DNA of 64,000 nucleotides from Draconibacterium sediminis (lineage in GTDB: Bacteria > Bacteroidota > Bacteroidia > Bacteroidales > Prolixibacteraceae): positions 310,001 through 374,000 of the forward strand of contig NZ_JRHC01000001.1 in the NCBI RefSeq assembly GCF_000949475.1, written 5' to 3'. The notes below the pieces were generated by a model. That model searched no databases. It was not told the DNA's origin and saw only the letters and a list, made by a program, of their open reading frames with translations. Both the position numbers and the translations under genes were made by a program. Shown in pieces: positions 209-59,512 of the stretch (position 1 is the first letter of the stretch; every line of letters starts with the position of its first letter).

Positions 209-225
209 TATATTTGTGTACAAAT
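209..225 (+). promoter_or_regulatory. Promoter box and inverted repeat upstream of osmC
   Basis: TATATTTG at 209-216 fits the Bacteroidota -7 consensus TAnnTTTG. It overlaps the inverted repeat ATTTGT-GT-ACAAAT at 212-225. The position, between a divergent Crp/Fnr-like gene and osmC, makes it a reasonable operator candidate. No convincing -33 TTTG was found at the right spacing. Confidence 0.4.
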
Positions 226-256
226 TTAATGTAAAGTATTTTAAAATAAGGATGTT

Positions 257-673: not shown

Positions 674-724
674 ATTCTGGTTCGTGAAAATATATGAAAG
701 CAATCTTTTTATGGGTTGCTTTTT

Positions 725-1084: not shown

Positions 1085-1263
1085 GAAATGATTTTCAACT
1101 TGAATTTGTTATGTAATAGAAATAAAGCTGATTACCTATTGCAATATTGAGGGAAGTTTATCAAACAAATTACTTTATAAGAATCATACTTAAATTAAAA
1201 TGTTTTGGGGCTAACGAAGTCCTGAAACTTTTATAATTTTATAGATCAATAAAGAATCTCACT

Positions 1264-2628
1264 ATGTTAAAATCGATTAATCCGGTAACAAACGAAATAG
1301 TAAAAACCTATCAAAAACACTCTGAAGAAGGCGTTGAAAAGATCATTAATTCAGTAGATAAAATATGGCATCACTGGCGAAGTACTTCCTTTCATCATCG
1401 GGGGCAGCTGATGCAAAATGCAGCCAGTATTTTACGCAGCAAAAAAGAAGAGCTGGCTTTGCTGATGGCTCAGGAAATGGGGAAAGTAAAAAGCGAAGGA
1501 ATTGCCGAAATTGAAAAGTGCGCATGGGTTTGCGAGTATTATGCAGCCAACGCCGAGGCGTTTCTCGAAAACGAAACCATAGCCACACAGGCCAGAAAAT
1601 CATACGTTTCGTACCAGCCAATCGGAACTATTTTAGCTGTTATGCCCTGGAATTTTCCGTTTTGGCAGGTGTTTCGTTTTGCAGCTCCAACACTAATGGC
1701 GGGTAACACAGCCGTACTAAAACATGCCAGCAATGTGCCGGGCTGTTCCATGGCAATCGAAGAGATTTTCCGTGAGGCCGGATTCCCTGAAAACGTATTT
1801 CGTTCGCTGTTAATTGGCAGCCCGATGGTTGAAAAAGTGATCAAACATAAAGCCATAAAAGGAGTGAGTCTCACCGGAAGTACACCTGCCGGTAAAAGTG
1901 TTGCAGCCCTGGCCGGAGCAGAATTGAAAAAATGCGTGCTGGAGCTGGGCGGCAGCGATCCGTACCTGATTTTAAAAGATGCCGACCTGGAAATGGCTGC
2001 CAAAAAATGTGCTGCAGGCCGCCTGCTAAATGCCGGACAAAGTTGTATCGGTGCCAAACGTTTTATCGTGGTAGAAGAGGTTTACGCACATTTCCTCGAG
2101 CTTTTTACCTACGAAATGAACGCTGCACACTTTGGCGATCCTTTCGACGAGGAAAGTACAATGGGGCCAATGGCACGTGAAGATCTGCGCGACGAATTGC
2201 ACCAGCAGGTTGTTGATTCGGTAAATAAAGGCGCTGAAATAATTATTGGAGGCGAAATTCCGCATCGTAAAGGGGCTTTTTACCCGCCAACCATTCTTGA
2301 AAATGTGAAGCCGGGAATGCCGGCGTATGAAGAAGAACTGTTTGGTCCGGTGGCTTCGGTAATAAAAGTAAAAGACCAGGAAGAGGCCATTCGCGTAGCA
2401 AACGACACCGATTTTGGTTTAGGAGCAGCCGTGTTTACGCAAAATATTAAAAAGGGCGAACATATCGCCGAAATTGAACTGGAAGCCGGTGCCTGTTTTG
2501 TAAATGATTTTGTGAAATCGGATCCGCGTTTACCTTTTGGCGGAATAAAAACCAGTGGATTTGGCCGCGAACTTTCCGTACAAGGTATCAAGGAATTTAT
2601 GAATGTAAAAACTGTTTTTGTAAAATAA
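1264..2628 (+). CDS. NAD(P)-dependent aldehyde dehydrogenase (succinate-semialdehyde type)
   Basis: A 454-residue soluble enzyme that oxidises an aldehyde to its acid. The catalytic set of the superfamily is complete: oxyanion-hole Asn130 in PWNFP, cofactor Lys153, general base Glu227 in LELGGSDP and nucleophile Cys261 in GQSCIGAKR. The short length (about 455 rather than 480-500) and overall look match the Sad/YneI branch of succinate-semialdehyde dehydrogenases, so that substrate is likely but not proven. The gene lies 18 bp upstream of a GH2 glycosidase, probably co-transcribed. That pairing does not obviously support GABA metabolism, and the physiological aldehyde could instead be sugar-derived. 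Confidence 0.88.
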   Translation: MLKSINPVTNEIVKTYQKHSEEGVEKIINSVDKIWHHWRSTSFHHRGQLMQNAASILRSKKEELALLMAQEMGKVKSEGIAEIEKCAWVCEYYAANAEAFLENETIATQARKSYVSYQPIGTILAVMPWNFPFWQVFRFAAPTLMAGNTAVLKHASNVPGCSMAIEEIFREAGFPENVFRSLLIGSPMVEKVIKHKAIKGVSLTGSTPAGKSVAALAGAELKKCVLELGGSDPYLILKDADLEMAAKKCAAGRLLNAGQSCIGAKRFIVVEEVYAHFLELFTYEMNAAHFGDPFDEESTMGPMAREDLRDELHQQVVDSVNKGAEIIIGGEIPHRKGAFYPPTILENVKPGMPAYEEELFGPVASVIKVKDQEEAIRVANDTDFGLGAAVFTQNIKKGEHIAEIELEAGACFVNDFVKSDPRLPFGGIKTSGFGRELSVQGIKEFMNVKTVFVK

Positions 2629-2646
2629 GCTTTTAAACCTAAACTT

Positions 2647-5118
2647 ATGCTAAAAACCTTTTACGGTGGAGTATTCGCTCTGCTTCTTTTGGTTTCCTGC
2701 ACCCAGAAGGAAACAATCATTAGTCGTGAAGAATCATTTGATAAGGACTGGAAATTTATCAGATCCGATGTTCAAGGTGGACAGAATGTGGATTTTGATG
2801 ATTCCGGTTGGAGAACACTCGATCTGCCGCACGATTACAGTATTGAAGACCTTCCTGAAAAAGAAGGAGTAATACAGATCGGACCATTTTCGGAAGAAAG
2901 TGCAGGAAAGGCTTCCACCGGTCACGTTGTAGGTGGAACGGCCTGGTATCGGAAACATATTACACTCGCACCTGAAGATGAAGGCAAAACGATTAAGATT
3001 CTATTTGATGGCGTTTATATGAATGCCGATTTCTGGATCAATGGTAATCATCTTGGCAACCATCCGTATGGATACACTGCTTTTGCTTACGATTTAACGG
3101 AGTATTTAAATGCATCGGGCGAAGATAATGTTTTGGCTGTTCAGGTGAAAAACGAAGGCAAAAACTCACGATGGTACAGTGGATCAGGAATTTACAGAAA
3201 TGTAAGTTTGTTAAAACTGAATCCGGTTCATATTGATTTGTGGGGCGTTTATGTAACAACTCCGGAAGTTTCTGAGGAAAAAGCTACCGTAAAGATCGAA
3301 ACAAAAATTAAAGCTGACGAATCAGTTGAACGACTGACATTAGAGGGGCAGTTGCTAAACCCTGATGGACAAATCGTGGCAAAATGGAATTCACCTGTTG
3401 ATTTAAATCAGGCAACTGCTGTTTTACAAACTGAATTGGAATTTCCATCGTTGTGGTCTCCTGACAGTCCGGCTTTATATACAGCAAAAATGCAGCTACT
3501 TGATGGCAATATGGTCATCGACGAATACGATGAAAGGTTTGGAATCCGATCTATAGATTTTTCTCCGGGAAAAGGATTTTTGTTGAACGGCAAAAGCGTT
3601 TTACTAAAGGGTGGGTGTTTACACCATGACAACGGCCCGTTGGGATCGGCAGCATTTAAAGCTGCCGAATATCGACGAGTAAAAACCATGAAGGAAAATG
3701 GTTTTAATGCTATCCGTACTTCGCATAATCCACCTTCAAAACATTTCCTAGATGCCTGCGACGAGTTGGGAATTTTAGTAATGGATGAATCATTTGATCA
3801 GTGGCAACGCGGCAAAAACGATCAGGACTATCATCTTTATTTTGACGACTGGTGGGAGCGAGATCTGGAATCGATGATACTGCGCGACCGAAATCATCCG
3901 TCGATTGTAGTATGGAGTGTCGGTAACGAAATTAACGAGCGTGCCGATTCTTCAGGTTTGGAAATATTTAAATTTCTTCGCGAAAAAGTACTCACCATGG
4001 ATAATACGCGTCCGGTAACACAGGCCATTTGTCATTTCTGGGATCATCCGGGATGGGACTGGGACCGCACAATCCCGGCTTTTGCGCAAATGGATATTCA
4101 CAGCTATAATTACCAATGGAAAAACTATGAACCTGATCATGAAAAGCATCCTGAACGTATAATTGTGGGAACGGAATCTTTCCCTAAAGAAGCATTTGAT
4201 AATTGGGATTTGGTTGAAAAACATCCGTATATAATTGGTGATTTTGTATGGACCGGAATGGATTACCTTGGAGAGAGCGGAATAGGACATAATAACCTCG
4301 ATAATGAGAATGTTGGCTTCTTGCCTGACTGGCCATGGTATAATGCATATTGTGGCGATATAAGCATCCTTGGCTACAAGAAACCACAAATGTATTACCG
4401 CGATGTAGTTTGGCGCAACAGCGAGCTTGAAATGCTGGTTCATGAACCTGTTCCTGATGGCAGAACAGAAGTGGTTAGTATGTGGGGATGGCCCGAAGAA
4501 TGGAAAAGCTGGAACTGGGAAGGAAACGAAGGAATACCGCTACAGGTAGCAGTTTATACACGTTGCGATCAGGTACAACTGGAACTGAACGGGGAGGTAA
4601 TTGGAAAAAAAGATGTAGCTCAGAAAAACAGCGGGGCTCAACAAATGGATGTTCCTTCTGAATCGCGCCAAATAGAAGCATTAGCTGCTTATTTTGATGT
4701 GTCTTACCAGGCTGGAGAATTGGTTGCCATTGGAATAAAAGATGGAAAAGAAGTGGTTCGGCAATCTTTAAAAACAGCTGGGAAACCGGCAGCGCTAAAA
4801 GTAGTTGCCGAAAACGAAATTGCAAAAGCATCGGGTAACGACCTGGCGTATTTTAATATTGAAGTTGTTGATGCCAATGGAAATTTAGTTCCAAATGCCG
4901 AACTTCCTGTTGAATTTACGATTGAAGGAAATGGTAGCCTGCAAGCTGTGGCTAACGGAAATCCATCGGATATGAAAAGCTTTCAGCAGCCGAGAGTGAA
5001 TACGTTTCGCGGTAAATGTCAGTTAATCGTTCGTCCGAGAGAGGACGGTGCAGAAATTAAGGTTACTGCTACTTCAGAAGGCTTAGAAAGTGGTCATTCC
5101 ACGGTTATAGTTCAGTAA
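2647..5118 (+). CDS. Glycoside hydrolase family 2 lipoprotein (beta-galactosidase-like)
   Basis: An 823-residue exported enzyme. The N-terminus is a lipoprotein signal with lipobox LLVSC. Domain order is a sugar-binding jelly-roll (about 30-190), an immunoglobulin-like domain (about 200-310), a TIM barrel (about 310-600), then C-terminal Ig-like modules of the DUF4982 and Big type (about 610-823). The acid/base Glu428 sits in VWSVGNEINE and the nucleophile Glu510 in IVGTESFPKE. Activity is most likely beta-galactosidase, but GH2 also holds beta-glucuronidases and related enzymes. It follows the aldehyde dehydrogenase by 18 bp. No SusC/SusD pair lies beside it, so it is not in a classical polysaccharide utilisation locus. 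Confidence 0.9.
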   Translation: MLKTFYGGVFALLLLVSCTQKETIISREESFDKDWKFIRSDVQGGQNVDFDDSGWRTLDLPHDYSIEDLPEKEGVIQIGPFSEESAGKASTGHVVGGTAWYRKHITLAPEDEGKTIKILFDGVYMNADFWINGNHLGNHPYGYTAFAYDLTEYLNASGEDNVLAVQVKNEGKNSRWYSGSGIYRNVSLLKLNPVHIDLWGVYVTTPEVSEEKATVKIETKIKADESVERLTLEGQLLNPDGQIVAKWNSPVDLNQATAVLQTELEFPSLWSPDSPALYTAKMQLLDGNMVIDEYDERFGIRSIDFSPGKGFLLNGKSVLLKGGCLHHDNGPLGSAAFKAAEYRRVKTMKENGFNAIRTSHNPPSKHFLDACDELGILVMDESFDQWQRGKNDQDYHLYFDDWWERDLESMILRDRNHPSIVVWSVGNEINERADSSGLEIFKFLREKVLTMDNTRPVTQAICHFWDHPGWDWDRTIPAFAQMDIHSYNYQWKNYEPDHEKHPERIIVGTESFPKEAFDNWDLVEKHPYIIGDFVWTGMDYLGESGIGHNNLDNENVGFLPDWPWYNAYCGDISILGYKKPQMYYRDVVWRNSELEMLVHEPVPDGRTEVVSMWGWPEEWKSWNWEGNEGIPLQVAVYTRCDQVQLELNGEVIGKKDVAQKNSGAQQMDVPSESRQIEALAAYFDVSYQAGELVAIGIKDGKEVVRQSLKTAGKPAALKVVAENEIAKASGNDLAYFNIEVVDANGNLVPNAELPVEFTIEGNGSLQAVANGNPSDMKSFQQPRVNTFRGKCQLIVRPREDGAEIKVTATSEGLESGHSTVIVQ

Positions 5119-6427: not shown

Positions 6428-7782
6428 TTATAGTCTTCTGCAAATTGGTTCGCAATTGTTCTACCTTGTTTTATCCGGTCGGCCATACCAATTCCGTCGC
6501 GCATGTTTCCGGCAAGCTTGAGCCCTTTAAATTCGGTCTCCAGATCGGAAATGGCCTGTAGTTTTTCTTCGCTTTCGAAACTGTATTGCGGAATAGCATG
6601 CGGATAGCGGAAAATCTCCATCAGATCGGGCTCAAAACTTTCGAGGCCCATCATTTCGCGTACTTCGCGCTCTGCAATTTCTTTTATTTTATCATCGGAA
6701 TACTCAAACATTTCGGGTCTTTTAATACCGCCCATAAACACCGATAGCAACGCGCCGTTTTCAGGCGCCCGGTTTTTTAGGAACGAACCCGGCAACAAAA
6801 TACCCAGCACATCGCGTTTTTCGGCCGAAGGTACCAACCCTCCAAACGATTTGATCGGGATGCCTTTCCAGTTGTTAAAACCAAGCACCACCTGGGTAAC
6901 TTTGGCATAGCTCATCTTTTCAATCGGCTGAAGCTTCTCTTTCGGTAAGAATGGAAACAGACCGGGCAAAGCATGCGATCCGGCTGCCGAAATTACATGG
7001 GTAAAACTTTCTCCATCCAACGAATATTCAAAATCTCCTTCTTTTTTAACCTCAAGGTTTTTGCAGCCCAGCTTAATATTTTCCTTACCAATATTTTTAA
7101 CCAACGCTTTTGTCAGGTTATCCAATCCGTTTTCAACCGAAAATACCTGGCGATTGGCTTTGCGTGGTGGTTCCTTTTTACGTGCCTTTTTTTGTTTGAT
7201 ACTACCGCCGATAAAACTGCCGTAGTTTTGCTCCAACCAGTAAAGTTTGGGCAAAGCAAAACGTGTTACCAGTTTCTCCGGATCGCCCGCATAAACTCCC
7301 GACAGAAAAGGATCGATAGCATTTCGCAGAAAGCTTTTTCCCATTCGGCGGCGTACCATATCGGCAATTGTTTCATTCGGATCGGTGCCCGGTTTACGAA
7401 ATGGCTCACCCAGAATACGAAACTTGTCGTACCATGTAAAAAGGGGAGTGGTGATGGCTTTTAAACCGCCCATTTCCATATCGTGCCACTTGCCGCCCAT
7501 CCAAATCCAGCGTGCTTCGGCGCTTTTGTTGGCGTATTCAATCGTACAATCATCAGCCAGATCTTCAAAAAGCTCAGCAGCTTCTTCCTGTCCCATCGAG
7601 CCGGTATTTGGCCCCGATTCGAATACAAAACCATTTTTTCGGTGGGTTTTAATCACTCCACCAGCTTGGTCATCTTTTTCATAAACCTGTACCTTAAAAC
7701 CAAATTTTTTAAGGTAATAAGCTGTTGTAAGTCCGGTTAGTCCTGCCCCAATAACGGCAATGTTTAGTTGGTTTTTTTGCAT
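6424..7782 (-). CDS. hemG: Protoporphyrinogen oxidase, FAD type
   Basis: A 452-residue flavoprotein that oxidises protoporphyrinogen IX to protoporphyrin IX. The N-terminus has the dinucleotide-binding fold VIGAGLTGLTTAYYL followed by YEKDDQAGG, which binds the FAD ADP moiety. The C-terminus has the matching GNMRDGIGMADRI flavin segment. It is the HemY/PPO-like family (called hemG or hemY in different annotations), not the flavodoxin-like E. coli HemG. It sits 5 bp after hemN and overlaps hemH by 4 bp, so the three late haem genes form a tight operon. Confidence 0.92.
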   Translation of the reverse strand: MQKNQLNIAVIGAGLTGLTTAYYLKKFGFKVQVYEKDDQAGGVIKTHRKNGFVFESGPNTGSMGQEEAAELFEDLADDCTIEYANKSAEARWIWMGGKWHDMEMGGLKAITTPLFTWYDKFRILGEPFRKPGTDPNETIADMVRRRMGKSFLRNAIDPFLSGVYAGDPEKLVTRFALPKLYWLEQNYGSFIGGSIKQKKARKKEPPRKANRQVFSVENGLDNLTKALVKNIGKENIKLGCKNLEVKKEGDFEYSLDGESFTHVISAAGSHALPGLFPFLPKEKLQPIEKMSYAKVTQVVLGFNNWKGIPIKSFGGLVPSAEKRDVLGILLPGSFLKNRAPENGALLSVFMGGIKRPEMFEYSDDKIKEIAEREVREMMGLESFEPDLMEIFRYPHAIPQYSFESEEKLQAISDLETEFKGLKLAGNMRDGIGMADRIKQGRTIANQFAEDYK

Positions 7783-7787
7783 GGTTT

Positions 7788-9164
7788 TTATAGCGCTTTT
7801 GAGAATTTTAAGGTCGCATTCCGCATGTTCGGATCAAGGCTGGCAGCGATGTTTCGTACAAAAAAACGTCCTTGTTTACTAACGTGCAGTTCGTCTTTCG
7901 AAAGCGATAAAAGTCCTTCTTCAACAAAACCGGCAAGGAACGATTCGTCGTAAACTATGCTTTGTTTAATTACATCGGGAGAAGTTTTTAGCATTTGTGC
8001 CGCTTCCTCCCACGAAATATAATAGTTGCACATCACTTCGTTGATGACGTGGCGAATGATCTTCTCCGTTTCATTCAGCTGATAACCTTTTTCAATGGTA
8101 AATTTACCGGCGTTGATCTGGTCAACGTAAGTATTGGTGTCCTTGGCATTTTGTGCGTAAGCATTTTCCAGCTGGCTGATTCCGGTGGCTCCAAAAGCAT
8201 AAACCTGTCCGGTAGTTTCGCGAGTGCAATATCCCTGAAAATTACGGTGCAGCGTTTTGTTTTTAAAGGCAATACTCAATTCGTCATCCGGGCGGGCAAA
8301 ATGGTCGAGACCAATGGCATCGTAACCGTTTTCAGTCAGTAAACGATAACCAACCTCGAACATGGCCAGTTTTTTAGTTGCTGATGGTAATCCACGTGCA
8401 TCCAGTATTTTTTGTGCTTTTTTTACCCAAGGCACGTGTGCATACGAGAAGGTTACCAAACGATCAGGCGACAGATTAATAGCGCGCTCGATGGTTTTTG
8501 CAAACGATTCTTCGTCCTGAAACGGAAGACCATAGATAAAATCGAAATTCACGCTGGTACCCTCGTGGCTGCGGATCATCGCCACCAAATCTTCCTCGGG
8601 AAGAATCGACGGATCGCGGTTTACATTATCCAGCACCTCCTTGTTAAAATCCTGAATACCCAAACTAAAGCGGTTAAACTTTAGTGCTACCAGGCGGTCG
8701 ATGTAATCCTTATCCAGCATCGCCGGATGACATTCCATGGCAATTTCCGGTTTTGGAATAAACTCGAAAAGCTCGTGAATTACATTCATAATGTCTTCCA
8801 CCAACTCGATCGACAACGAGTTGGGTGTTCCGCCTCCCCAGTGCACCTGCGACACTTTACGGTCGTCGCTAAGCAGCTTTTTCACCATGCGGATCTCTTT
8901 TTTCAGCGCATCAACATAAACTTCCATTTTGTTTTTGTCGCGTGTTAGGTGCGTGTTACAGCCGCAGAAATAACAGATCTTTGGGCAAAACGGGATATGA
9001 ATATAAATGGAAATATTCTGTGGATTCTCTGAATTGGATTGTTCCAACACTTTAACGTATTGTTCCGGAGTAAATTCCGGTGAAAAGAAGTTGGCCGGCG
9101 GATAACTTGTATATCGCGGTACCGGGGTGTTGTATTTTTCTATTAGTTTTTGTGATACTTTCAT
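7788..9164 (-). CDS. hemN: Oxygen-independent coproporphyrinogen III oxidase (radical SAM)
   Basis: A 458-residue radical SAM enzyme that decarboxylates coproporphyrinogen III anaerobically. The cluster motif is Cys60-x3-Cys64-x2-Cys67 in FCPKICYFCGC, with the extra Cys69 typical of true HemN. The N-terminal YNTPVPRYTSYPPANFF segment is also HemN-specific and separates it from HemW-like proteins. It is the first gene of hemN-hemG-hemH. Its start codon is predicted to be base-paired in a hairpin (9162-9200), which may control translation. Confidence 0.94.
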   Translation of the reverse strand: MKVSQKLIEKYNTPVPRYTSYPPANFFSPEFTPEQYVKVLEQSNSENPQNISIYIHIPFCPKICYFCGCNTHLTRDKNKMEVYVDALKKEIRMVKKLLSDDRKVSQVHWGGGTPNSLSIELVEDIMNVIHELFEFIPKPEIAMECHPAMLDKDYIDRLVALKFNRFSLGIQDFNKEVLDNVNRDPSILPEEDLVAMIRSHEGTSVNFDFIYGLPFQDEESFAKTIERAINLSPDRLVTFSYAHVPWVKKAQKILDARGLPSATKKLAMFEVGYRLLTENGYDAIGLDHFARPDDELSIAFKNKTLHRNFQGYCTRETTGQVYAFGATGISQLENAYAQNAKDTNTYVDQINAGKFTIEKGYQLNETEKIIRHVINEVMCNYYISWEEAAQMLKTSPDVIKQSIVYDESFLAGFVEEGLLSLSKDELHVSKQGRFFVRNIAASLDPNMRNATLKFSKAL

Positions 9165-9200
9165 ACTATTAAAGTTGTATATTTTTAATGGTATAGTATG
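9162..9200 (-). promoter_or_regulatory. Hairpin burying the hemN start codon
   Basis: Read on the minus strand, CATACT (9200-9195) pairs with AGTATG (9167-9162), whose last three bases are the hemN AUG. The stem continues as ATTAAA/TTTAAT after a 5-nt bulge, with a loop of about 10 nt. Twelve pairs place the start codon at the base of the stem. This is A/T-rich and moderately stable, so it could act as a translational switch or thermometer. No experiment or homologue supports it here. Confidence 0.45.
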
Positions 9201-9278
9201 GAACTCACATATATTTTAATCATAATCTGGGGTTTGAATAATATACATGTTCGTTTCATAATACTAATTTAAAGAGTC

Positions 9279-10502
9279 TTAATCGGTTTCTTGTTCATAC
9301 TTCAGGTAAAAACTTTTTCTGAAGACAAATGGCAACAGGACAAGGATAAGAATTCCGAGCCCTATTTCTATGGCAAACAGCCCGCGGTAGGTAAGCGCAT
9401 CGGCCACTTTTCCGCTCATTATGGCAATAACAAGGCTGCTTAGGTGTGTAATTACTATTTGAATGGTAAAATCGGTTCCTTCGCGCCCTTTTCGAACTAC
9501 GTGCATGCTCATGGTATACACAAATACCGACGACATGGCGTATGCTCCCCAAAGCAGGGCGACACCCAAATAAACCAACCACAAAGCATGGTTGGTATAG
9601 GTTAGTCCGAAAAAGAAAGTGGCCACCAGCACATTAATTACCGGAAAGATCCACACCGCTTTGGTAATCCCTTTTTTACGGAGCAGAAATCCTGCGGGTA
9701 CGGTCATGAGAACACCGCAGGCCGTTCCGAATATTCCGGAGATGATTCCAATTTCTTTAATGTCGTAACCCAGGTCGACGAAGTAGGGTTTTATCATGGT
9801 TAAAATCCCGATAATTCCTGAATAAAACAGGAAGAGTAACAAAAGGTGAGCACCAATTTTTCTTTGCCTGAAAAAGTAGATAAACTCCAGTGGCGATACA
9901 TTTTTTGTTGAACGATCGGGTTCGTTTCCGTTGCGTGCGTTGTACAGCGACACCGGAATGAGTGCAAACAACACAAACAAACCGAGCGAGCGCAACAACC
10001 ATAACCAACCAAAATAATGGTAGATAATGAGTAAAACACCGCTGCCCATCATGGTTCCGATAAAACTACCAGCCGATTGCATGCTGTTTCCAAGGCTGCG
10101 TTCGTTTTTATTCAGAATAAGAATGGCAAAAGCATCAGTGGCAATATCCTGCGTTGCTGATGCGGTAAATGCAATTACCATCAGAATAATAATGGTGGTA
10201 AAATCGGTTTGTAGGTTTAAATAACCAACCGACATGATGATGAGCGCATAAAAAGCCTCCGACATGATGATCCACCTGCGGTAGTGCCGTTTGTTTTTAC
10301 TGGTTTTATCAACCATTGGCGCCCACAGCATTTTCAGAATCCACGGCAGTTTTATCAGCTGGATATAACCGATGGATTCCAGCGAGTAATTCTCCATTCG
10401 CATGATCACGGGGATCACCGTAGAGAAAAAACTCATCGGGATCGACTGTGCCAGGTAGAGGCTCAGCAGCGTATAATATTTTTTTATTTCGCTTTGTTTC
10501 AT
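9279..10502 (-). CDS. MFS permease of the AmpG/PAT type (RhtX/FptX-like)
   Basis: A 407-residue inner-membrane protein with about 12 hydrophobic segments. Typical marks of the peptide/acetyl-CoA/drug (PAT) branch are an early SIPMSFFSTVIPV helix, KMLWAPMVD after helix 2 and SATQDIATDAFA in helix 4. This branch includes AmpG muropeptide permeases and the single-protein siderophore importers RhtX/FptX. Its start lies 1 bp after the stop of an iron-type TonB receptor gene, so uptake of the same ligand across the inner membrane is the best reading. Muropeptide transport is the alternative. Confidence 0.82.
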   Translation of the reverse strand: MKQSEIKKYYTLLSLYLAQSIPMSFFSTVIPVIMRMENYSLESIGYIQLIKLPWILKMLWAPMVDKTSKNKRHYRRWIIMSEAFYALIIMSVGYLNLQTDFTTIIILMVIAFTASATQDIATDAFAILILNKNERSLGNSMQSAGSFIGTMMGSGVLLIIYHYFGWLWLLRSLGLFVLFALIPVSLYNARNGNEPDRSTKNVSPLEFIYFFRQRKIGAHLLLLFLFYSGIIGILTMIKPYFVDLGYDIKEIGIISGIFGTACGVLMTVPAGFLLRKKGITKAVWIFPVINVLVATFFFGLTYTNHALWLVYLGVALLWGAYAMSSVFVYTMSMHVVRKGREGTDFTIQIVITHLSSLVIAIMSGKVADALTYRGLFAIEIGLGILILVLLPFVFRKSFYLKYEQETD

Positions 10503-47323: not shown

Positions 47324-47735
47324 TTCCGTTGCACTACATCAGCGGTACTCCTCCTCAAAGGAGGAGAAACTATTTGCATTTCAATTCGATTTTGAACTAA
47401 AAATAAGCATGGAGCACGAAAATTTAGCTACGCTGATTTTCAATTCCCCACTTGTCAGGAGGGGGTATCCGTCAGCCGACGGATGGGGTGGTAGTACTAT
47501 CGCATTTTTTACCCCTTGTTTTTATATAAGAGTGATTAAGATTGCTTCTCCCGATTCGTTTTACTCATCGGGATCGCAATGACACCCGGTTTAGGGTTAT
47601 TGGGCAGCGGAAAGGATAGAATCGTGCAGGGATGAACATGTTTATTGTCCGCTGCCTACTTAAACTTGAATCCCTGTCATTGCTAGGAGGGACGACGAAG
47701 CAATCTTCCTTAACAACCTATTAACCTCACACCCA
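47324..47735. repeat. Intergenic palindromic repeats
   Basis: No gene is seen. The stretch holds CTCCTCAAAGGAGGAG (47351-47366), CCGTCAGCCGACGG (47469-47482), and GCAGCGGA...TCCGCTGC (about 47604-47660), which recurs at 54551-54606. Inverted copies of an AGATTGCTTC/GAAGCAATCT repeat sit at 47540 and 47697. Confidence 0.55.
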
Positions 47736-50668: not shown

Positions 50669-51655
50669 ATGAATATGCATCCAATAAAACAAATAAAAGC
50701 ATTGTTTCACCCCGAACGTTACCACGGCTGGGGGCGCAGCAAACGATATTTCGAAGGCTGGTACTATAAAATTTTGTCGGCGGGAGGGAAGGAGGCTTTT
50801 GCCTTTATCCCCGGTATTGCCATGGACGATCAGGGCAATCAGCATGCTTTTATACAGGTGCTTGACGGAAAGGCGCAAACAGCCGAATACCTTCAGTTTC
50901 CGGCCGAAGCCTTTACTGCCGATTCCGGTTCCTTCTCTGTTGGTATCGACGGGAGTAAATTTACAGGCAACAGCATGCAACTGGAACTCAACAACTATTA
51001 CGGAACGCTGCAGTTTAAAAACATGGTTCCCTGGCCCAATAAGTGGTATTCGCCGGGGATAATGGGGCCCTATACTTTTGTGCCTTTTATGGAGTGCTAC
51101 CACGGTATTGTAAGTATGGATCACGAGTTGGAGGGCACTTTAACCATTCACGGGCGGGCAGTCGATTTTAGCGGCGGACGCGGTTATATCGAAAAAGACT
51201 GGGGCCATTCCTTTCCATCGGCGTATTTCTGGATGCAGTCGAACCACTTTGCCCAGGCGGAAATTTCCTTTAAAGCTTCGGTGGCAAAAATTCCGTGGTT
51301 GCGAAGTTCTTTTGTGGGCTTTATTGCCGGTTTGTATGTCAACGGAAAGCTGTATCAGTTTACCACCTATAACGGCACCAAACTGTTGCGCTCGCTGGCC
51401 GACAAAAAGCAGGTAGAATTGCTGATGGAAAACAAAAAATACCGCCTCGAAGTACTGGCACACCGCCATTTGGCTACCGAATTGGCTTCTCCCATAGCCG
51501 GTTTTATGGACGGGCGCATCAGCGAAAGTATGACCGCTGAACTCGACATTACCCTTACCGATAAAAAAAGCGGGAAAGTTATCTTCCACGATACCGGCCG
51601 TAATGCTGCCCTCGAAGTAGCCGGAAAAATTAAAGAAATTACCCTGGAAGATTGA
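50669..51655 (+). CDS. Tocopherol cyclase-like protein
   Basis: A 328-residue protein of the tocopherol cyclase family (plant VTE1, Pfam Tocopherol_cycl), a lipocalin-like double barrel. Recognisable segments are RYFEGWYYKIL (26-36), WYSPGIMGPYTFVPFMECYHG (126-146 region) and GGRGYIEKDWGHSFPSAYFW (169-188), the most conserved block. There is no signal peptide. The start may be Met1 or Met3. In plants the enzyme closes the chromanol ring of prenylquinols, while the reaction of bacterial homologues is unknown. The next gene encodes a fused phytol kinase/phytyl-phosphate kinase-like protein, which strengthens a prenyl-lipid role. Confidence 0.87.
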   Translation: MNMHPIKQIKALFHPERYHGWGRSKRYFEGWYYKILSAGGKEAFAFIPGIAMDDQGNQHAFIQVLDGKAQTAEYLQFPAEAFTADSGSFSVGIDGSKFTGNSMQLELNNYYGTLQFKNMVPWPNKWYSPGIMGPYTFVPFMECYHGIVSMDHELEGTLTIHGRAVDFSGGRGYIEKDWGHSFPSAYFWMQSNHFAQAEISFKASVAKIPWLRSSFVGFIAGLYVNGKLYQFTTYNGTKLLRSLADKKQVELLMENKKYRLEVLAHRHLATELASPIAGFMDGRISESMTAELDITLTDKKSGKVIFHDTGRNAALEVAGKIKEITLED

Positions 51656-51773
51656 AAAGGGAACAAACCAGGCACAAACAGAAATCTGAGATGCTGGAAT
51701 TCAGTTCCAACGATCTTCCTTATATTTAGAAAATAAAGCAATAGCAGGGATACTTAAAGCTTAAACAAACGCA

Positions 51774-53141
51774 TTGGAAACCGAAATTCATGAAAGAAAT
51801 AAGACCACTTCCCTGACAAAAAGAAGAAACGCTTTAACGGTCAGAAAACTGGTACATCTGGTAACCGGGCTGCTTATTCTGTTTTTAACCTTCACCATAA
51901 GTCGCCAGCTTTTGTTGATCCTGATTATTGCCGGTTCTGTTTTTTCGTTTGCCACTTTCCGGCATAAGTGGCTGCAGCTTGTTCATAAAACCGATAACAA
52001 GAGCCTGGGTACCCTGTTTTATCCGCTGGGTATACTGCTGTCGTTCCTGTTATTGGGCGGTTTGCCCGTCTATTATTTCCAAACTGCACTTATGGTGTTG
52101 ACACTTTCCGATCCGCTGGCCAACCTTTTCGGAAGAATCCGTGCCGGCAATATCCTGTTCCGGATAGGCCAGGATAAAAAAAGCCTGTACGGACTAATGG
52201 CTTATTCGCTTGCAAACCTGTTTGTGTTTGCCGTTTTTTTGCCTCAGGCTCTATTCGCCAATGTGTATTTTGTTGTTGCATTACTATTGCTTGCCGCCTG
52301 TTTTGAACTTGTTTCGTGGCGCGGCTCCGATAATTTATCGATACCCGTTGGACTGACATTGTTTTTTATATTTCAGTACACCCAACAGCCCGATTTTCTT
52401 TTTGTAAGTGTGGTATTGATAATCGTATTTGTGGGTACCTACCTGCTGAATTCATTAAAACTGCTCACCCGCTACGGAAGTTTGGCAGCCGGAGCACTGG
52501 GATTTTATTTACTGGTTGTTGCCGGATGGAATTGGTTGTTGCCGGTATTGTTTTTCTTCGTGAGTTCGGTGATTTTTACACTGCTAAATCCAATGCGCAA
52601 AAGGAAGAACAGGCCATCGGGCGGAAGAAATAGTTGGCAGGTAATGGCCAATATTTTATGGGCACTGCTGAGTTCGGTGTTGTATCTTGCGACCGCGAAT
52701 GAGCTGTTTATTTTCTTTTTTATTGCCAGTGTTGCCGCCGTTACTGCCGACACATGGGCCAGCGAGGCGGGTCCGCTTTTTAATAAAAGAAGTTTTTCGG
52801 TGGCCGATTGGAAGATGCACAAAGCAGGCGTAACAGGTGGAATTTCTTTGGGCGGAACAATGGCGGCACTGGCAGGAGCTTTCCTGGTCTCAGCCGGGGG
52901 CTATTATTTGTTTTTTGATATGTGGAACCTGCCTGATATTGGAATACTGACCTTGTCCGCATTTCTGGCCTGTTTTGCCGATACCTTTTTAGGGGCTTTT
53001 GTCGAGGAGAAACTCTATAAGTCAGCTTTCTTTAAAAAGCTGCAAAAACCTGAATCTTTCACGCCAAACGACCTGGTAAACCTGGGAGGATCATTTACGG
53101 CCTTGGTGTTTTTCCTGCTGTTACATTTCCTGTTTTTGTAG
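51774..53141 (+). CDS. Fused phytol kinase-like (VTE5) and DUF92 (VTE6-like) membrane protein
   Basis: A 455-residue protein with about 12-14 membrane helices. Residues about 15-220 match the dolichol kinase/phytol kinase/CDP-DAG synthase-like group: RKLVHLVTG, DPLANLFGRIRAG, KKSLYGLMAYS and GSDNLSIPVG. Residues about 235-455 match DUF92, the family of plant phytyl-phosphate kinase VTE6: RNSWQVMANILWALL, ADTWASEAGPLF and GVTGGISLGGTMAALAGA. A single protein could thus convert a prenyl alcohol to its diphosphate in two CTP/NTP-dependent steps. It is downstream of a tocopherol cyclase-like gene and convergent with a UbiA gene. Confidence 0.88.
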   Translation: METEIHERNKTTSLTKRRNALTVRKLVHLVTGLLILFLTFTISRQLLLILIIAGSVFSFATFRHKWLQLVHKTDNKSLGTLFYPLGILLSFLLLGGLPVYYFQTALMVLTLSDPLANLFGRIRAGNILFRIGQDKKSLYGLMAYSLANLFVFAVFLPQALFANVYFVVALLLLAACFELVSWRGSDNLSIPVGLTLFFIFQYTQQPDFLFVSVVLIIVFVGTYLLNSLKLLTRYGSLAAGALGFYLLVVAGWNWLLPVLFFFVSSVIFTLLNPMRKRKNRPSGGRNSWQVMANILWALLSSVLYLATANELFIFFFIASVAAVTADTWASEAGPLFNKRSFSVADWKMHKAGVTGGISLGGTMAALAGAFLVSAGGYYLFFDMWNLPDIGILTLSAFLACFADTFLGAFVEEKLYKSAFFKKLQKPESFTPNDLVNLGGSFTALVFFLLLHFLFL

Positions 53142-53161
53142 ATTGACCCAAAAGAGTTTTA

Positions 53162-54094
53162 TCAATTCAAAAAATTATAGATAACAAACCCAGCTATAAA
53201 CATCACCGAGAAAACAAGGTGGATAAGCACGGTTAGTTTTGCACCGGCCTTTAACTGGTCCGGGTTATCATGTTGTTTCAGAACGATACCTGCGGCTTTT
53301 GGAAACAACAAAATATATGGAAGCAATGCCAGTAAGAGCGGCCATGTATTGCCCGGATATTGCGTAAACAGCAAAACGATATTTGCGGCCAGAGCCAGCT
53401 GCACCAATACATACAAAACCGATGTAAAGCGTGTTCCCAAACGCGATGCCACTCCGTGTTTTCCTCCTTTCCGGTCGGCGTCCAGATCGATCATTTGTCC
53501 GACCAGTAATATCGACGAAGTGCTGAGCCCTGTGGTGGGCAGTAACCAAAGCAGTTGCGGATGAAAGACCAGGTTTTGACTTACCGCCGCTATAAGAATG
53601 GCCATGGGACCAAAGGCCAGCCACACCGACACTTCGCCCCAACCACGGTAAGCAAGTTTAAACGGCGGAGCTGTGTAATATTTGCTAAAAAAAGCCGACA
53701 CCAGAAATAATATCCACAGTAGCATACGCAATTCCTCTTCTATCAGGAAAGTGAGTGCGACGGTTCCCATCAGGGCAATAACAAGGGCTGTGCGCGCCAA
53801 AAAGTACATCTTTCCCATCAGATCAGGATTGTCGAGCAGCACCCCCGAACCTCCACTTGATTCATTACGGTGTACATTCACTTTATCGGTGCCCTGCAGT
53901 GTATCGTAAATATCGTTATACACATTGGTGGCCACGTGCAGACCAAGCCCGATAAGCAGTACAACAATAAAATTCAGCACATCAAAACTTTCTTTTACGC
54001 CGACACTCCATAATGTACCAATTACTATGGGCGCAATAATACTGCTCAGGAATGGTGCCCGAATCATTTTCAAAATACCGGGATTCTCGTTCAT
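53162..54094 (-). CDS. UbiA family prenyltransferase (MenA-like)
   Basis: A 310-residue membrane enzyme with about nine helices that transfers a prenyl group onto an aromatic acceptor. The first Asp motif is NVYNDIYD (57-64), the second MIDLDADRKGGKHG (201-214), and FSKYYTAPPFKLAYRGWGE (136-154) resembles the MenA (dihydroxynaphthoate prenyltransferase) signature. Menaquinone synthesis is therefore the default reading. Its stop lies 21 bp from that of the VTE5-VTE6-like fusion, so a link to that prenyl-lipid cluster is possible. Confidence 0.87.
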   Translation of the reverse strand: MNENPGILKMIRAPFLSSIIAPIVIGTLWSVGVKESFDVLNFIVVLLIGLGLHVATNVYNDIYDTLQGTDKVNVHRNESSGGSGVLLDNPDLMGKMYFLARTALVIALMGTVALTFLIEEELRMLLWILFLVSAFFSKYYTAPPFKLAYRGWGEVSVWLAFGPMAILIAAVSQNLVFHPQLLWLLPTTGLSTSSILLVGQMIDLDADRKGGKHGVASRLGTRFTSVLYVLVQLALAANIVLLFTQYPGNTWPLLLALLPYILLFPKAAGIVLKQHDNPDQLKAGAKLTVLIHLVFSVMFIAGFVIYNFLN

Positions 54095-54325
54095 GTTTTT
54101 TGTTTTAGGTCGTGTATAGTTTCTATCAACAGGCTGTAAATTACAAAGAAATACGGCAAATGAAGAACCATTTTATTTTTATTCTTGCAGGCGGTAGATT
54201 TCCGTTTTGTAATAAAACCATAGTAAACTGTATTTATTTAGCAGCGAGCGAGATAGCCGAAAAATTCTTGTACACAAAGAAGATAAAGGCATTATTCGTC
54301 CAGACGATCAAAAAAAACCAATACG

Positions 54326-54521
54326 ATGAAAAACAACCGCATGCGAAACCAGATCATTATCATTCTTACCACCTTTTGTTGTTGGATTGTTTAATACCCT
54401 TTTATTGAAACCGGAAGATACAGGAACCTGGAAAAACTATGTGGGTTATGGTTTTCTGCTTATCTGTCTGATAAACGTTTGTTGGTTTTTGATACTCATC
54501 GGTAAAAAAAGCACTAAATAA
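54326..54521 (+). pseudogene. Small two-helix membrane protein, frameshifted
   Basis: An ATG at 54326 opens MKNNRMRNQIIIILTT and then stops at codon 23. A one-base shift at about 54373-54380 (T-rich ACCTTTTGTTG) continues as FVVGLFNTLLLKPEDTGTW, then a second hydrophobic stretch (YGFLLICLINVCWFLILIG) ending KKSTK at 54521. One extra T would explain it. The intact product would be 64 residues with two membrane helices. Whether this is decay, a sequencing error or recoding cannot be told. Confidence 0.5.
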
Positions 54522-54550
54522 GTCTGCACTCATTGGGGGGTATGTCAAGC

Positions 54551-54606
54551 AGCGGACAGAAGACCATCGTGCCGGGATAAACTAACTCATTGTCCGCTGC
54601 CTTGTT
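54551..54606. repeat. GCAGCGGAC hairpin repeat
   Basis: GCAGCGGACA near the left answers TGTCCGCTGC on the right, with CATCGTGCCGGGATAAAC in the loop. It is related to the element at about 47604-47660. Confidence 0.65.
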
Positions 54607-54743
54607 GGCAATCTCTGTTTCACCCGCAGCCCATTCATCCCCAAAAGCCCCACATTTGTCGAAAAATATTTTGCGTACAACGGGCCGGGGGTATATTCAT
54701 GGGTAGAATAAAAAACAAGTATTACTAACCATTTATCAATCTC

Positions 54744-55319
54744 ATGAAACTCGATTTTAAAAAGGAGCTAAATCTCTGGGGGGTGTATTTTCTGACCATT
54801 TTTCTAAGTATTTATGTGCACGAACTGGGGCACTGTATTCCGGTTTGGGTAAAAGGGATCGGGGCCATTCCCACGCCGGCAAAAGAGTATATTTTACAAA
54901 CCATACCGGAGGCTTTACAACAGCAGGTATCACTGGGAGGTATTTTAGGAACTGTGTTGGTTACTCTTGGAATAATGGTGTTGTATGGGCTGAAAAAATT
55001 CAGGTACGATTCGGCTGTACTGGCCGGTGTATTGGCCATGCCCGGTATGTATACGCTTCGGTTTATAGTGGTGGGACGCGGGCACGATGCCACCGAGTTT
55101 CAGGAAGCACAGGCAGCGCTGGGGGCAGCTTACAACGGCCATTTTATTGATTGGCTTTTTCTTGCGCTTTTTGTGACGGGTACAGCTTTATGGGTGCTGA
55201 AAGCACAACCCCAACTCCGCATTGCCGGGCGTTTACTTATTGGTTTTGTACTCACCGTACTCTTTGTAATTGCCCACCAGGTGGTAAACAACGCGGTTTT
55301 CGATCCGATGTTTTTGTAA
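54744..55319 (+). CDS. Membrane protein with HExxH motif, family not recognised
   Basis: A 191-residue protein with five or six hydrophobic segments. The first helix ends in YVHELGHCIPVW, giving an HExxH zinc motif (His26, Glu27, His30) as in membrane-embedded M50-type proteases. The second M50 motif (NPDG or similar) is not found, although Asp and Glu residues near 115-119 (HDATEFQEAQ) could be a third ligand. It is monocistronic between repeats. It could be a minimal intramembrane metallopeptidase, or a membrane protein with a chance match. Confidence 0.75.
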   Translation: MKLDFKKELNLWGVYFLTIFLSIYVHELGHCIPVWVKGIGAIPTPAKEYILQTIPEALQQQVSLGGILGTVLVTLGIMVLYGLKKFRYDSAVLAGVLAMPGMYTLRFIVVGRGHDATEFQEAQAALGAAYNGHFIDWLFLALFVTGTALWVLKAQPQLRIAGRLLIGFVLTVLFVIAHQVVNNAVFDPMFL

Positions 55320-55738
55320 GATGTATTTTCAATCCCCCCTTTTAGTTCCCTCTTCGCCAAGGGGGACTGGAACGAACTTGCAACCAAAACGATTTCACTC
55401 CATTATCCCAAAGGGATTAAATACGCATAACCCCGGGCGAGGACGATAGTCCGCTGCCCGGGGAAAGAAACACTGTATCGTTACATCCCTGAAAGGGGTG
55501 AATCATACTCTTCCCAATTAATGGTTTACATTCAACCACTCCATGGCTGTTTCGTGTTAGGCATTCTTTCACGGGTTGCACCCGCGGTTATTCGGATTTT
55601 ACCACTTCGTGGTATTTTGTTGTTCCCAACCCTCACCCAAAAACCGTAAATTAGCCAAAACATTCGCTGTTGTTTGATGAACAAAACGGGTTTTGCAACC
55701 TTTTTCAAAAAGATCGTCTACTTAGTATAGAATGAACA
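55320..55738. repeat. Palindromic repeat region before sigZ
   Basis: No gene is seen. Repeats include ATCCCAAAGGGAT (55403-55415), CCCCGGGC...GCCCGGGG (55425-55463) and further hairpins related to those at 15.15 and 39.05 kb. Confidence 0.5.
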
Positions 55739-56311: not shown

Positions 56312-57540
56312 TGCTGCTTTTACCCCTCGTTTGTAACGAGGGGTAGAGGATGATTAAAAAAATCAATCTGTTTTACCCTAAGCCCTAAAGGGAACCAGAT
56401 TGATTTTTAGGATTTCACCCTTTAGGGCTGGGGTAAAAAATCCTAAAAATCATATTGAAACGATATTCTGTTAAAAGTTTCTTTTTTCGTCATCCTGAAC
56501 TTGTTTCAGGATCTTTAATTGCTGAATATCGTTCCGGTAAGATTCTGAAATGAATTCAGAAGGACGTCTTTTCGGACTTTCTACCCCTCGTTTGTAACGA
56601 GGGGTGTATTGTTTTTCGTTTGTAATTAAACAATCGATTATCTTTTCATTTTTGGCGCAAGTAGTAAGACTCGTTTCAAGTGAGTACATATTTCCTGTTG
56701 TCGATACAATCGACAGTAAGTTTGCCCCTCGTTACAAACGAGGGGCAGAGGGCAGAGGGGCTGGTTTGTGCGGAGCAGAATGAAATCTGGGTTCATAAGA
56801 AAAAATCAAATCCGGAGGATTTTAATGTTTATAGCAAATATGGATGGAATGAAGGTACGACTCCAGCCGGAGTCGAATGTTTTACCATTGCTAATGGCTA
56901 TATACATTTGATGCCTCTGGCATCTCTTCTATCCCTGGGTTGTAACGAGGGGCAGAGGGTGGTTAAAAAAATCAATCTGTTTTACCCTAAGCCCTAAAGG
57001 GAACCAGATTGATTTTTAGGATTTCACCCTTCAGGGTTGGGGTAAAAAATACTAAAAATCATATTGAAACGAAACATTTGACCTTCTTTCCAAATACAGT
57101 GCAAGCAGATTTCCTTCTCTGGTCTATTCAATAGCCGAACCAGATAAATAGTGGTACGATTGAATCTCCTATAGACTTTATGTTGTCGATACAATCGACA
57201 GGATGTTGGCCCCTCGTTACAAACGAGGGGCAGAGGCAGACAGAAGGAAATCCGGGTTCATAGGAAAAAATTAAATCCGGAGGATTTAAATGTTTATAGC
57301 AAATATGGATCGAATGAAGGTACGACTCCAGCCGGAGTCGAATGTTTTACCTCGCTAATGGCTATATACATTTGATGCCTCTGGCATCTTTTCTATCCCT
57401 GGGTTGTAACGAGGCGCAGAGGGTGATTAAAAAAATCAATCTGTTTTACCCTAAGCTCTAAAGGGAACCAGATTGATTTTTAGGATTTCACCCTTCAGGG
57501 ATGGGGTAAAAATCCTAAAAATCATATTGATATATAAGCT
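56312..57540. repeat. Satellite-like repeat block between sigZ and arsM
   Basis: About 1.2 kb with no gene. It contains CCCCTCG-type REP palindromes (56323, 56584, 56724, 57209). A structured unit with AAAATCAATCTG/CAGATTGATTTT and TTTTAGGATTT/AAATCCTAAAA arms occurs three times (about 56350-56460, 56960-57070, 57425-57530). The CCGGAGG/ACTCCAGCCGGAGT composite occurs twice (56808-56935, 57273-57400). The last two sets repeat with a period of about 464 bp, indicating a segmental tandem duplication. Confidence 0.85.
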
Positions 57541-57629
57541 GTTCAGGGGGAAGAGGCAGGTCGTACAACAGAATGTTTGCAACCTTTTTTTTATTCTCCG
57601 TCTACCCAATAGACATTAAAACAATTACA

Positions 57630-58439
57630 ATGAAAAAGAATCACGACGAGATCAGAGAGGCTGTGCGCGAAAATTACAGCCGGGTAGCCGAAAAGAATGC
57701 GGCAAACAGTTGCGGATGTCTTACCGAAGACGGAAAAACTTGTTGTGCACCCGAACCCGCCGAATCGTTTTACCACATATCGGCACAACTGGGCTATTCT
57801 GAAAGCGAGTTACAAAACATTCCCGAAGGGGCCAACCTGGGACTGGGCTGCGGAAATCCACAGGCCATTGCGGCCATAAAAAAGGGCGAAACGGTTTTAG
57901 ACCTGGGCAGCGGTGCCGGCTTCGATGTGTTTTTGGCAGCCAACCAGCTGGGAAATACCGGCCTCGCTATTGGTGTCGACATGACTCCGAAAATGATTTC
58001 CACAGCACGCGAAAATGCCCGTAAAGGAGGGTACACCAACGTGGAGTTCCGCCTTGGCGAGATCGAATATCTTCCGGTGGCCGACAAAAGTGTGGATGTG
58101 GCCATCTCAAATTGTGTGATCAACCTCTCGCCCGAAAAACAAAAGGTTTTTAACGAGGTGATCCGCGTGTTAAAACCCGGCGGGCGAATTGCCGTTTCCG
58201 ATGTTATTGCCACCACCGTTTTACCCGAAAAGGTGCTGGAAGATATGGCCCTGTATTCCAGTTGTATCTCGGGAGCCTCTACCACCGACGAACTGGAGAC
58301 GATGCTTACCCAATCCGGATTTACCGACATAAAGATCAGCCCCAAAGACGAAAGCCGTGAGTTTATCCGCGAATGGGCACCGGGCACTTCCATTCACGAT
58401 TATATCGTTTCGGCAGCTATTGAAGCCCGTAAACCTTAA
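57630..58439 (+). CDS. arsM: Arsenite methyltransferase
   Basis: A 269-residue SAM-dependent methyltransferase, started at the Met at 57630 (an upstream frame to 57573 is not family-like). The SAM motif is VLDLGSGAGFDV (89-100). Arsenic-binding cysteines typical of ArsM are present: Cys74 in GLGCGNP, Cys162 in ISNCVINLSP and Cys212 in YSSCISGAS. An additional N-terminal CGC/CC cluster lies at 28-39. It methylates As(III) to volatile or less retained species. Probably regulated by sigZ upstream, though now separated by repeats. Confidence 0.93.
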   Translation: MKKNHDEIREAVRENYSRVAEKNAANSCGCLTEDGKTCCAPEPAESFYHISAQLGYSESELQNIPEGANLGLGCGNPQAIAAIKKGETVLDLGSGAGFDVFLAANQLGNTGLAIGVDMTPKMISTARENARKGGYTNVEFRLGEIEYLPVADKSVDVAISNCVINLSPEKQKVFNEVIRVLKPGGRIAVSDVIATTVLPEKVLEDMALYSSCISGASTTDELETMLTQSGFTDIKISPKDESREFIREWAPGTSIHDYIVSAAIEARKP

Positions 58440-58853
58440 GGTTTTTGTTTTTTCTACCCCTCGTTTGCAACGAGGGGTAAGTAATTTTTTCGTTTGTAAC
58501 GAAGCGGTTGATTTTCTTTCTGATTGCAGAGCACCTAGGCATCATTCTCCAGCATAATCCATAGCCTAACTAAATAACTATTGGTGCGATTGTGTCACTG
58601 TTAAAGCCTATTACCGTGTCGATACAATCGACAGAGAATTGGCCCCTCGTTACAAACGAGGGGCAGAGGATACGACTCCAGCCGGAGTCGCATTTCTTCA
58701 CCGGGGTATTTTCTATAAACGTTTGATGTCGCCGACATCAATCATCCAGCCATTCAAATAAATATTCATTTTTAAATTCAATATCGAAGGCTCCTACTAC
58801 CCCTCGTTTGCAACGAGGGGTAAACGGTTTTTCGTTTGTAACGAAGCAATCGA
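58440..58853. repeat. REP and composite repeats between arsM and the RAYT gene
   Basis: CCCCTCG palindromes at 58457, 58642 and 58800, a CGATACAATCGACA hairpin at about 58621, and a partial copy of the CCGGAGT composite at 58670-58790 that continues the same way as the copy at 49.1-49.27 kb. No gene is present. Confidence 0.8.
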
Positions 58854-59405
58854 TTAATAGTCTGTTTGTACGGAAACCAGTCCTTGTTCTCCGGCATAAT
58901 CAACAGCCGAACTAAACAAATATTCGTGTGGATGAGCTACAATTAAAGCTTTTACAGGATTTTCATGGATATAATTAATGCGTTGATCTATCTTATCTGT
59001 TGTGTCAAGAAGTATGGCATGATTTGTTTCCTGCCAGAATTTGTATTTTTTGATTCTGTTATCAAACTTACCTGCCAGTTCAAAACGATAGAGTAACCAG
59101 TCTCTTCTGCTTTCGGGTATTTCCTGAATCAGCTTTACAATTGTCTTCGAAGTAAATTTTTTAAAATCCCGGATTATATCACTAATTCTGAATCCTTCTT
59201 GTGCACTACACACCAAATGCAGATGATTAGACATAAGTACCCAGGCATATACGGTCAGGCCTTTATTAGCAACACAGTAATTTAGAGAATTAACGATTTC
59301 CAGTTTATATTCTTTTCGTGAAAATATATCTACCCAATCGGTAACAGTAAAGGTTAGAAAATAAGGCGCATTTTGGTCTTCAATGAAATAATTGTCTGCA
59401 GGCAT
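58854..59405 (-). CDS. REP-associated tyrosine transposase (RAYT)
   Basis: An intact 183-residue Y1 transposase. The HUH pair is His61/His63 in VLMSNHLHLVC, and the catalytic Tyr145 is in RINYIHENPVKA. The C-terminus continues with HPHEYLFSSAVDYAG, a RAYT-type ending. CCCCTCG...CGAGGGG palindromes lie on both sides (58800-58820 and 59458-59480), and seven more of the same family are within 9 kb. This is the likely source of that repeat family. Confidence 0.9.
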   Translation of the reverse strand: MPADNYFIEDQNAPYFLTFTVTDWVDIFSRKEYKLEIVNSLNYCVANKGLTVYAWVLMSNHLHLVCSAQEGFRISDIIRDFKKFTSKTIVKLIQEIPESRRDWLLYRFELAGKFDNRIKKYKFWQETNHAILLDTTDKIDQRINYIHENPVKALIVAHPHEYLFSSAVDYAGEQGLVSVQTDY

Positions 59406-59429
59406 TTTTGTTTAAAGGTACATATTTCC

Positions 59430-59480
59430 TTGTGTCGATACAATCAACGGTGAGTTAGCCCCTCGTTGCAAACGAGGGGC
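59430..59480. repeat. REP doublet upstream of the RAYT gene
   Basis: TGTGTCGATACAATCAACG followed by GCCCCTCGTTGCAAACGAGGGGC, the two-hairpin (BIME-like) arrangement seen at 56.7, 57.2 and 58.6 kb. Confidence 0.8.
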
Positions 59481-59512
59481 AGGCCGGAGTCGAATGTGTT
59501 TCCTCCTTTCGA

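Follow-up and report, generated by a model that had tools for sequence, protein, structure and literature searches.

The window analysed here is a 64,000-nucleotide stretch of the 6.0 Mb genome of the non-photosynthetic marine bacterium Draconibacterium sediminis (G000:C1:310001-374000). At positions 50669-54094, it carries three intact open reading frames (ORFs), encoding a tocopherol-cyclase-family protein, a two-domain membrane fusion and a convergent UbiA prenyltransferase. Chance is not enough to explain this arrangement, because ten genomes, from four families in all, carry the fusion-UbiA pair, and each of these genomes also encodes a cyclase. The gene set may represent an accessory route for prenyl-alcohol salvage and prenylation, a reading to which we give slightly less than an even chance.

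The cyclase gene (50669-51655, plus strand) encodes 328 aa. The fusion gene begins 118 nt downstream with a TTG start and encodes a 455-aa membrane protein, whose putative prenol-kinase-like N half (51774-52412, plus strand) is of the CTP_transf_1, or VTE5/dolichol kinase, type, and whose C half (52413-53141, plus strand) is a membrane domain of the DUF92/COG1836 family, the family of the phytyl-phosphate kinase VTE6. The third gene, on the minus strand (53162-54094), encodes an accessory MenA-like UbiA prenyltransferase of 310 aa. An earlier sequence-only reading of this DNA had proposed the same three genes, and all are open at the positions it gave; it was also right that the fusion and UbiA genes converge, while its gap of 21 bp is corrected to 20 nt (53142-53161).

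Conservation was assessed in 61 near relatives and in 295 genomes of the order, both samples including the genome itself. The fusion and the window-type UbiA were found together, convergent and adjacent, in all ten genomes of the order in which either was detected. Among the relatives, 27 show some match to the fusion; both halves are present in 7 of them, and the other 20 matches lie over the N half. The window-type UbiA stands beside the fusion in those seven, with 86-91% identity in the six other than the window's own. Across the order, UbiA was detected at E up to 1e-20 in 4/295 genomes, and the fusion, at the same threshold, in the same four. These are the genome itself, G481, G574 and G586, the last three representing three further families. 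In these three the genes are again convergent neighbors (fusion 46-58%, UbiA 67-73% identity), and fusion identity among all pair genomes spans 46-79%. Seven low-scoring UbiA places (in G001, G011, G026, G047, G058 and twice in G050) are none of them of the window type: nothing there falls below E 0.04, whereas true members show 67-91% identity over 300 residues. Weak places in G037, G045 and G060 lay outside this comparison.

The cyclase is present in 10/10 pair genomes, against a background of 30/295 in the order. Among the relatives it occurs in 17 of 61; five other g1 genomes searched (G005, G007, G008, G012 and G019) have no cyclase. It is linked to the pair in eight of the ten genomes, adjoining the fusion in seven relatives and separated from it by one small ORF in G481. 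Hypergeometric tests, whose p-values ignore kinship and are hence optimistic, gave 8.9e-5 for the order with the genome itself and 8.7e-4 without it (3/3), 1.6e-3 by genus, and 1.6e-4 among the relatives without the genome itself. In a cyclase tree of 41 rows (7 of 48 dropped: five duplicates and two fragments), the 10 rows from genomes with all three genes fall into two distant clades with four label changes, a number as low as this being reached in 0/500 shuffles. The VTE1-like, VTE5/VTE6-like and MenA-like genes noted by the sequence-only reading do form a conserved association; the possibility it had raised that the gene order might be unique to this strain can be discarded, the pair recurring in 10 genomes, all with the cyclase. 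The strict pairing of fusion and UbiA is most simply accounted for if the fusion makes a prenyl diphosphate that UbiA uses, and the excess of cyclases suggests that the product would be the cyclase substrate, at least in these genomes.

A joint loss provides further evidence. In Draconibacterium mangrovi (L152), the DNA flanking the locus on either side is 92-97% identical to that of the window, and window positions 51641-55624 (about 4 kb) are replaced by about 0.3 kb. The fusion, UbiA and a small ORF at 54744-55319 are gone, and the cyclase, 92% identical to that of the window, remains open. No significant remnant of the pair was detected there, tblastn returning matches only at E above 0.1. 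The joint loss indicates that fusion and UbiA behave as a unit, and the retention of the cyclase indicates that it does not depend on the pair. In G004 and G034 the cyclase is likewise kept, next to a CIA30 gene and without the pair. The small ORF (plus strand) encodes a 191-aa membrane protein with a HELGH motif and no Pfam match; in both the window and G024 it is close to the pair. Since it adjoins the cyclase in G020, which lacks the pair, it is not part of the gene set.

The C half of the fusion is placed by PF01940 (DUF92; 152.7 bits, cut-off 27.5); TIGR00297 scores 109.5 bits, under its cut-off of 205.85. Across 27 sequences, 23 columns of this half are invariant. The N half is prenol-kinase-like by its relatives and residue pattern, not by direct profile. 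It is 27% identical to a 224-aa paralog of the same genome (L164), which exceeds the PF01148 cut-off (26.5 bits against 24), and PF01148 matches four of the 28 N halves in the alignment (L164 and 27 fusions), that of the window not among them. The pattern comprises RKxxH, SDxxA..G, KS..G and E...RGSDN; across 28 fusions G79, G120, K136, G140, D186 and N187 are invariant, and R24, H28, D113, A116, E178 and G184 are kept in at least 93%. The motif KD....HGG..DR.D, which we take to be the C-terminal signature of cytidine diphosphate diacylglycerol (CDP-DAG) synthases, occurs in 0/28 fusions, which speaks against the possibility, noted in the sequence-only reading, that the N half belongs to CDP-DAG synthases only. 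L183, cut by a contig end, was excluded from alignments A3 and A4, and L041 (a two-piece match) and L056 (broken) from A1. Searches of PDB sequences with the fusion and with profiles of both halves found no relative, only three chance-level matches. An AlphaFold2 model of the fusion was set aside (two-sequence alignment, mean predicted local distance difference test (pLDDT) 37.6). The fusion architecture itself is not new: full-length fusions at ~30% identity are common across other classes of the phylum, and some fusion match is present in 229/395 genomes. For this reason the co-occurrence of cyclase and distant fusion elsewhere in the phylum (full-length fusion in six of nine other cyclase genomes, a weaker match in one, none in two) is uninformative.

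The window UbiA matches PF01040 (67.3 bits, cut-off 34.2) and retains both aspartate-rich motifs, NDIYD and DLDADRKGGKHG. As the sequence-only reading had suggested, its best NCBIfam matches are of the MenA type, all under cut-off (TIGR00751, 72.5 against 102.15; TIGR02235, 102.7 against 225; NF004751, 100.5 against 264). The best is TIGR02235, the cyanobacterial and plant phytyl-MenA model, which gives the resident MenA of the same genome 72.9 bits. It is also the best model for the G481 enzyme (109.1); the ranking covers three UbiA of the window subtype (window, G481 and G586). The solved chain closest in sequence is UBIAD1 (E 3.8e-5). These matches point to a naphthalenoid head group and perhaps a phytyl-type chain. 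Together with the UbiA proteins of the nine other pair genomes, that of the window forms one clade (support 100/99); the tree has long branches and was used for the unity of this clade, not its position.

Three UbiA genes lie elsewhere in the genome. One encodes a canonical MenA (353.4 bits, cut-off 346) and is clustered with isochorismate synthase-, MenD-, MenB-, MenC- and MenE-type genes, of which MenD, MenB and MenC exceed their cut-offs and isochorismate synthase (likely menF) and MenE fall under theirs. The window UbiA is therefore an extra, accessory enzyme. This answers the question of a second menA left by the sequence-only reading, and its option that the window UbiA might simply make menaquinone loses ground accordingly. 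Another UbiA is of the heme O synthase type (173.1 bits, under the cut-off of 210.3). The third (L163, G000:C13:174000-183000) is of no clear type, its top score being 48 bits with a GGGP geranylgeranyltransferase model (cut-off 353); it is clustered with a DAGK-like kinase, an aminotransferase, a short-chain dehydrogenase, a radical SAM protein and an AIRS-like protein, possibly an unusual lipid cluster.

The cyclase is assigned by PF14249 (95.4 bits, cut-off 26.6), and its motif reads YIEKDWG..FPSAYFWMQSNHF. YxEKDWG is present in 47 of 48 cyclase rows (five of them duplicates), the one exception being a fragment. An AlphaFold2 model (27-sequence alignment, mean pLDDT 86.8) has a predicted double-lipocalin fold of the AttH/CghA type, pericyclase- or hydratase-like. 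It superimposes on CghA (6kaw) with Z 23.7 and a root-mean-square deviation of 3.3 over 285 aligned residues (VIA-align), and fold searches also match the pericyclases 7dmn, Fsa2 and Phm7, the AttH-like 2ich (Z 19.2), kievitone hydratase (Z 18.4) and a 25-phosphosteroid lyase (Z 17.2). Most of these neighbors are enzymes acting on hydrophobic molecules, and a shared fold proves no function. No entry titled tocopherol cyclase is among the fold-search matches listed, which excludes nothing, and a PDB sequence search found no relative of the cyclase. Cyclases of a second clade, with 41-42% identity to the window protein, are encoded between a DEAD-box helicase gene and an AmmeMemoRadiSam-type radical SAM gene (L158 in G026, 6657-9967; L165 in G025, 128-3563, its neighbors assigned by clustering only). 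A 417-aa cluster beside the cyclase was considered as a possible geranylgeranyl (GG) reductase and dropped, the four members scanned being DEAD-box helicases.

Tocopherol itself is an unlikely product, since neither HPPD (best 35.5 bits in the genome, cut-off 277) nor GG reductase (best 47.3, cut-off 158.8) reaches its cut-off. The HPPD result in particular disfavors reading the locus as tocopherol synthesis. Because no GG reductase passes, the cell would have to obtain any phytol used as the substrate from outside.

Gene content, homology, linkage, co-occurrence and co-loss together suggest the following route. The fusion would phosphorylate a scavenged prenyl alcohol twice within one polypeptide, the N half yielding the monophosphate and the DUF92 half the diphosphate. 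The adjacent second MenA-like UbiA would then move the prenyl group onto a naphthoate or naphthoquinol head, the simplest acceptor being 1,4-dihydroxy-2-naphthoate from the resident men pathway. The double phosphorylation and the UbiA step are, as predictions, moderately supported. Finally, chromanol ring closure by the cyclase may turn the reduced UbiA product into a naphthochromanol, a hybrid of vitamins K and E; this cyclization is plausible and would be a separable step, given that most cyclase genomes lack the pair, and in those other genomes the cyclase must have another substrate. Phytol derived from chlorophyll is our best guess for the alcohol, given that GG reductase does not reach its cut-off and that the phytyl-MenA model ranks best or second best for the three UbiA; farnesol or geranylgeraniol may serve instead. 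The complete chain, in which phytol from algal chlorophyll passes through a one-protein double kinase and a dedicated second MenA to a naphthochromanol in heterotrophic Bacteroidota, is a doubtful proposition when taken as a whole. If true, such a naphthochromanol would be a lipid antioxidant not described before, and neither photosynthesis nor homogentisate would be needed to make it.

Several observations weigh against this salvage and prenylation route, beside the kinship that the p-values ignore. At E up to 0.05, neither Pfam nor NCBIfam has a family that matches the N half of the window fusion, all matches being at chance level. UbiA falls under every MenA cut-off, which leaves its naphthalenoid head group and phytyl-type chain tentative, and for the G586 enzyme the phytyl-MenA model comes second (87.3 against 95.5 for the bacterial MenA model). 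Among the commonest neighbors at 28 cyclase loci, none was read as isoprenoid-related. Photosynthetic cyclases carry YxEKNWG according to PMC4963081, a form that the window cyclase does not match; like the other Bacteroidota cyclases compared, it has D at the position of N.

The most serious competing explanation accepts the fusion and UbiA as a salvage and prenylation pair and holds that the cyclase is independent and merely shares the locus, acting for example on menaquinol or another prenylated lipid, so that the product of the pair would be an uncyclized short-chain or phytyl naphthoquinone. We regard this as rather unlikely, while giving it real weight. The survival of the cyclase after loss of the pair in D. 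mangrovi fits it well, as does the absence of the pair from 26 of the 30 cyclase genomes of the order. In two of the ten pair genomes, G586 and G574, the cyclase lies on another contig, the fusion contig of G574 being only 4.5 kb long. Furthermore, the Arabidopsis cyclase is reported in PMC4963081 to be inactive in vitro on menaquinol-4, naphthoquinol-4 and phylloquinol, which counts against assuming that a naphthochromanol is formed. Against an independent cyclase stand its presence in every pair genome against a background of ~10%, the association of two separate cyclase clades with the pair, and its linkage to the pair in eight of the ten.

The fusion could also recycle long-chain polyprenols, such as undecaprenol-like or menaquinone side-chain alcohols, with UbiA as a redundant or condition-specific menaquinone synthase. 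VTE5 and FOLK are described in PMC9782597 as modestly similar to dolichol kinase, and the MenA-like character of UbiA is compatible with such a role. The distribution of the fusion bears on this as well: the distant fusions of other classes have no UbiA or cyclase neighbor among the loci listed, and the loci listed from a set of 20 (18 fusions and two stand-alone DUF92 genes) show no recurring isoprenoid partner. The fusion alone therefore does not imply the pathway, a further point against the route proposed here. Polyprenol recycling, which we consider improbable, would nevertheless on its own explain neither why the fusion is strictly paired with a second MenA-like UbiA nor why cyclases are in excess, and the pair is rare and dispensable (4/295). 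Least probable is that the cyclase has nothing to do with quinols, being a hydratase, a lyase or some other lipocalin-like enzyme, and that the three genes work toward a different terpenoid product: its fold neighbors do include Diels-Alderases, kievitone hydratase and the phosphosteroid lyase, but the profile matched is specifically PF14249, and N to D is the one change in the proposed catalytic motif.

In the surroundings, short intergenic stretches at 47539-47706, 54539-54606, 56681-56927, 57170-57388, 58616-58792 and 59419-59482 match several other places in the loci of relatives (70-100% identity over 40-170 nt), which suggests that interspersed repeat elements occur in the genus, including downstream of the UbiA gene. 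A 183-aa ORF at 58854-59405 (minus strand) resembles, by eye from its translation, a transposase of the IS200 type associated with repetitive extragenic palindromic (REP) elements. The methyltransferase gene at 57573-58439 has a UbiE-type domain (64.9 bits) among other matches; it was left out as a candidate quinone methyltransferase because it looks like an arsenite methyltransferase. A homolog in Chitinophagaceae loci adjoins a gene read by eye as ArsR.

Several known systems offer points of comparison. Phytol salvage by VTE5 and VTE6 in plants and cyanobacteria uses, by homology, the same two membrane protein families, kinase-like and then DUF92. In the window the two are fused, the host is a heterotroph without a GG reductase over cut-off, and the N half is too divergent for a direct profile match. 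That DUF92/COG1836 proteins act as phytyl-phosphate kinases is based on VTE6 of plants according to PMC9782597, and COG1836 is listed as a prediction in PMC3223725. The window cyclase shares PF14249, YxEK.WG and the following FP.....W.Q.N.F stretch with tocopherol cyclase VTE1 and its homologs in heterotrophs; unlike VTE1, it has D for N in the motif, and no homogentisate route was found in its genome. The heterotroph homologs were already noted in PMC4963081, which calls the motif "more or less preserved" and gives their function as not known. Unlike those homologs, the window cyclase is tied by context to genes for a prenyl diphosphate and a prenyltransferase, a connection for which no published description was found. 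MenA, phytyl-MenA (TIGR02235) and UBIAD1, the best NCBIfam and PDB sequence matches of the window UbiA, share its family and aspartate motifs, but the window enzyme is a second copy outside the men cluster, under all MenA cut-offs and in a clade of its own.

No report of such a gene set in Bacteroidota was found in the open-licence PMC literature. The colorless plastid of Euglena longa, as described in PMC7580956, is also non-photosynthetic and has kept VTE5 and VTE6, its products being tocopherol and lipids of the phylloquinone type. It is, however, a eukaryotic plastid with homogentisate-derived tocopherol and measured lipids, and its authors see VTE5 and VTE6 there as serving de novo synthesis rather than chlorophyll-phytol salvage. 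The few polyprenol and polyprenyl-phosphate kinases identified come from plants and cyanobacteria only, according to a 2022 review (PMC9782597). A conserved locus where a tocopherol-cyclase-like protein is tied to a fusion of the kinase type and to an additional MenA-like transferase offers a concrete, testable substrate set for both problems, that of the heterotroph cyclases and that of these kinases. If the proposed route is true, the chemistry of vitamins E and K would extend to scavenged chlorophyll side chains in non-photosynthetic bacteria.

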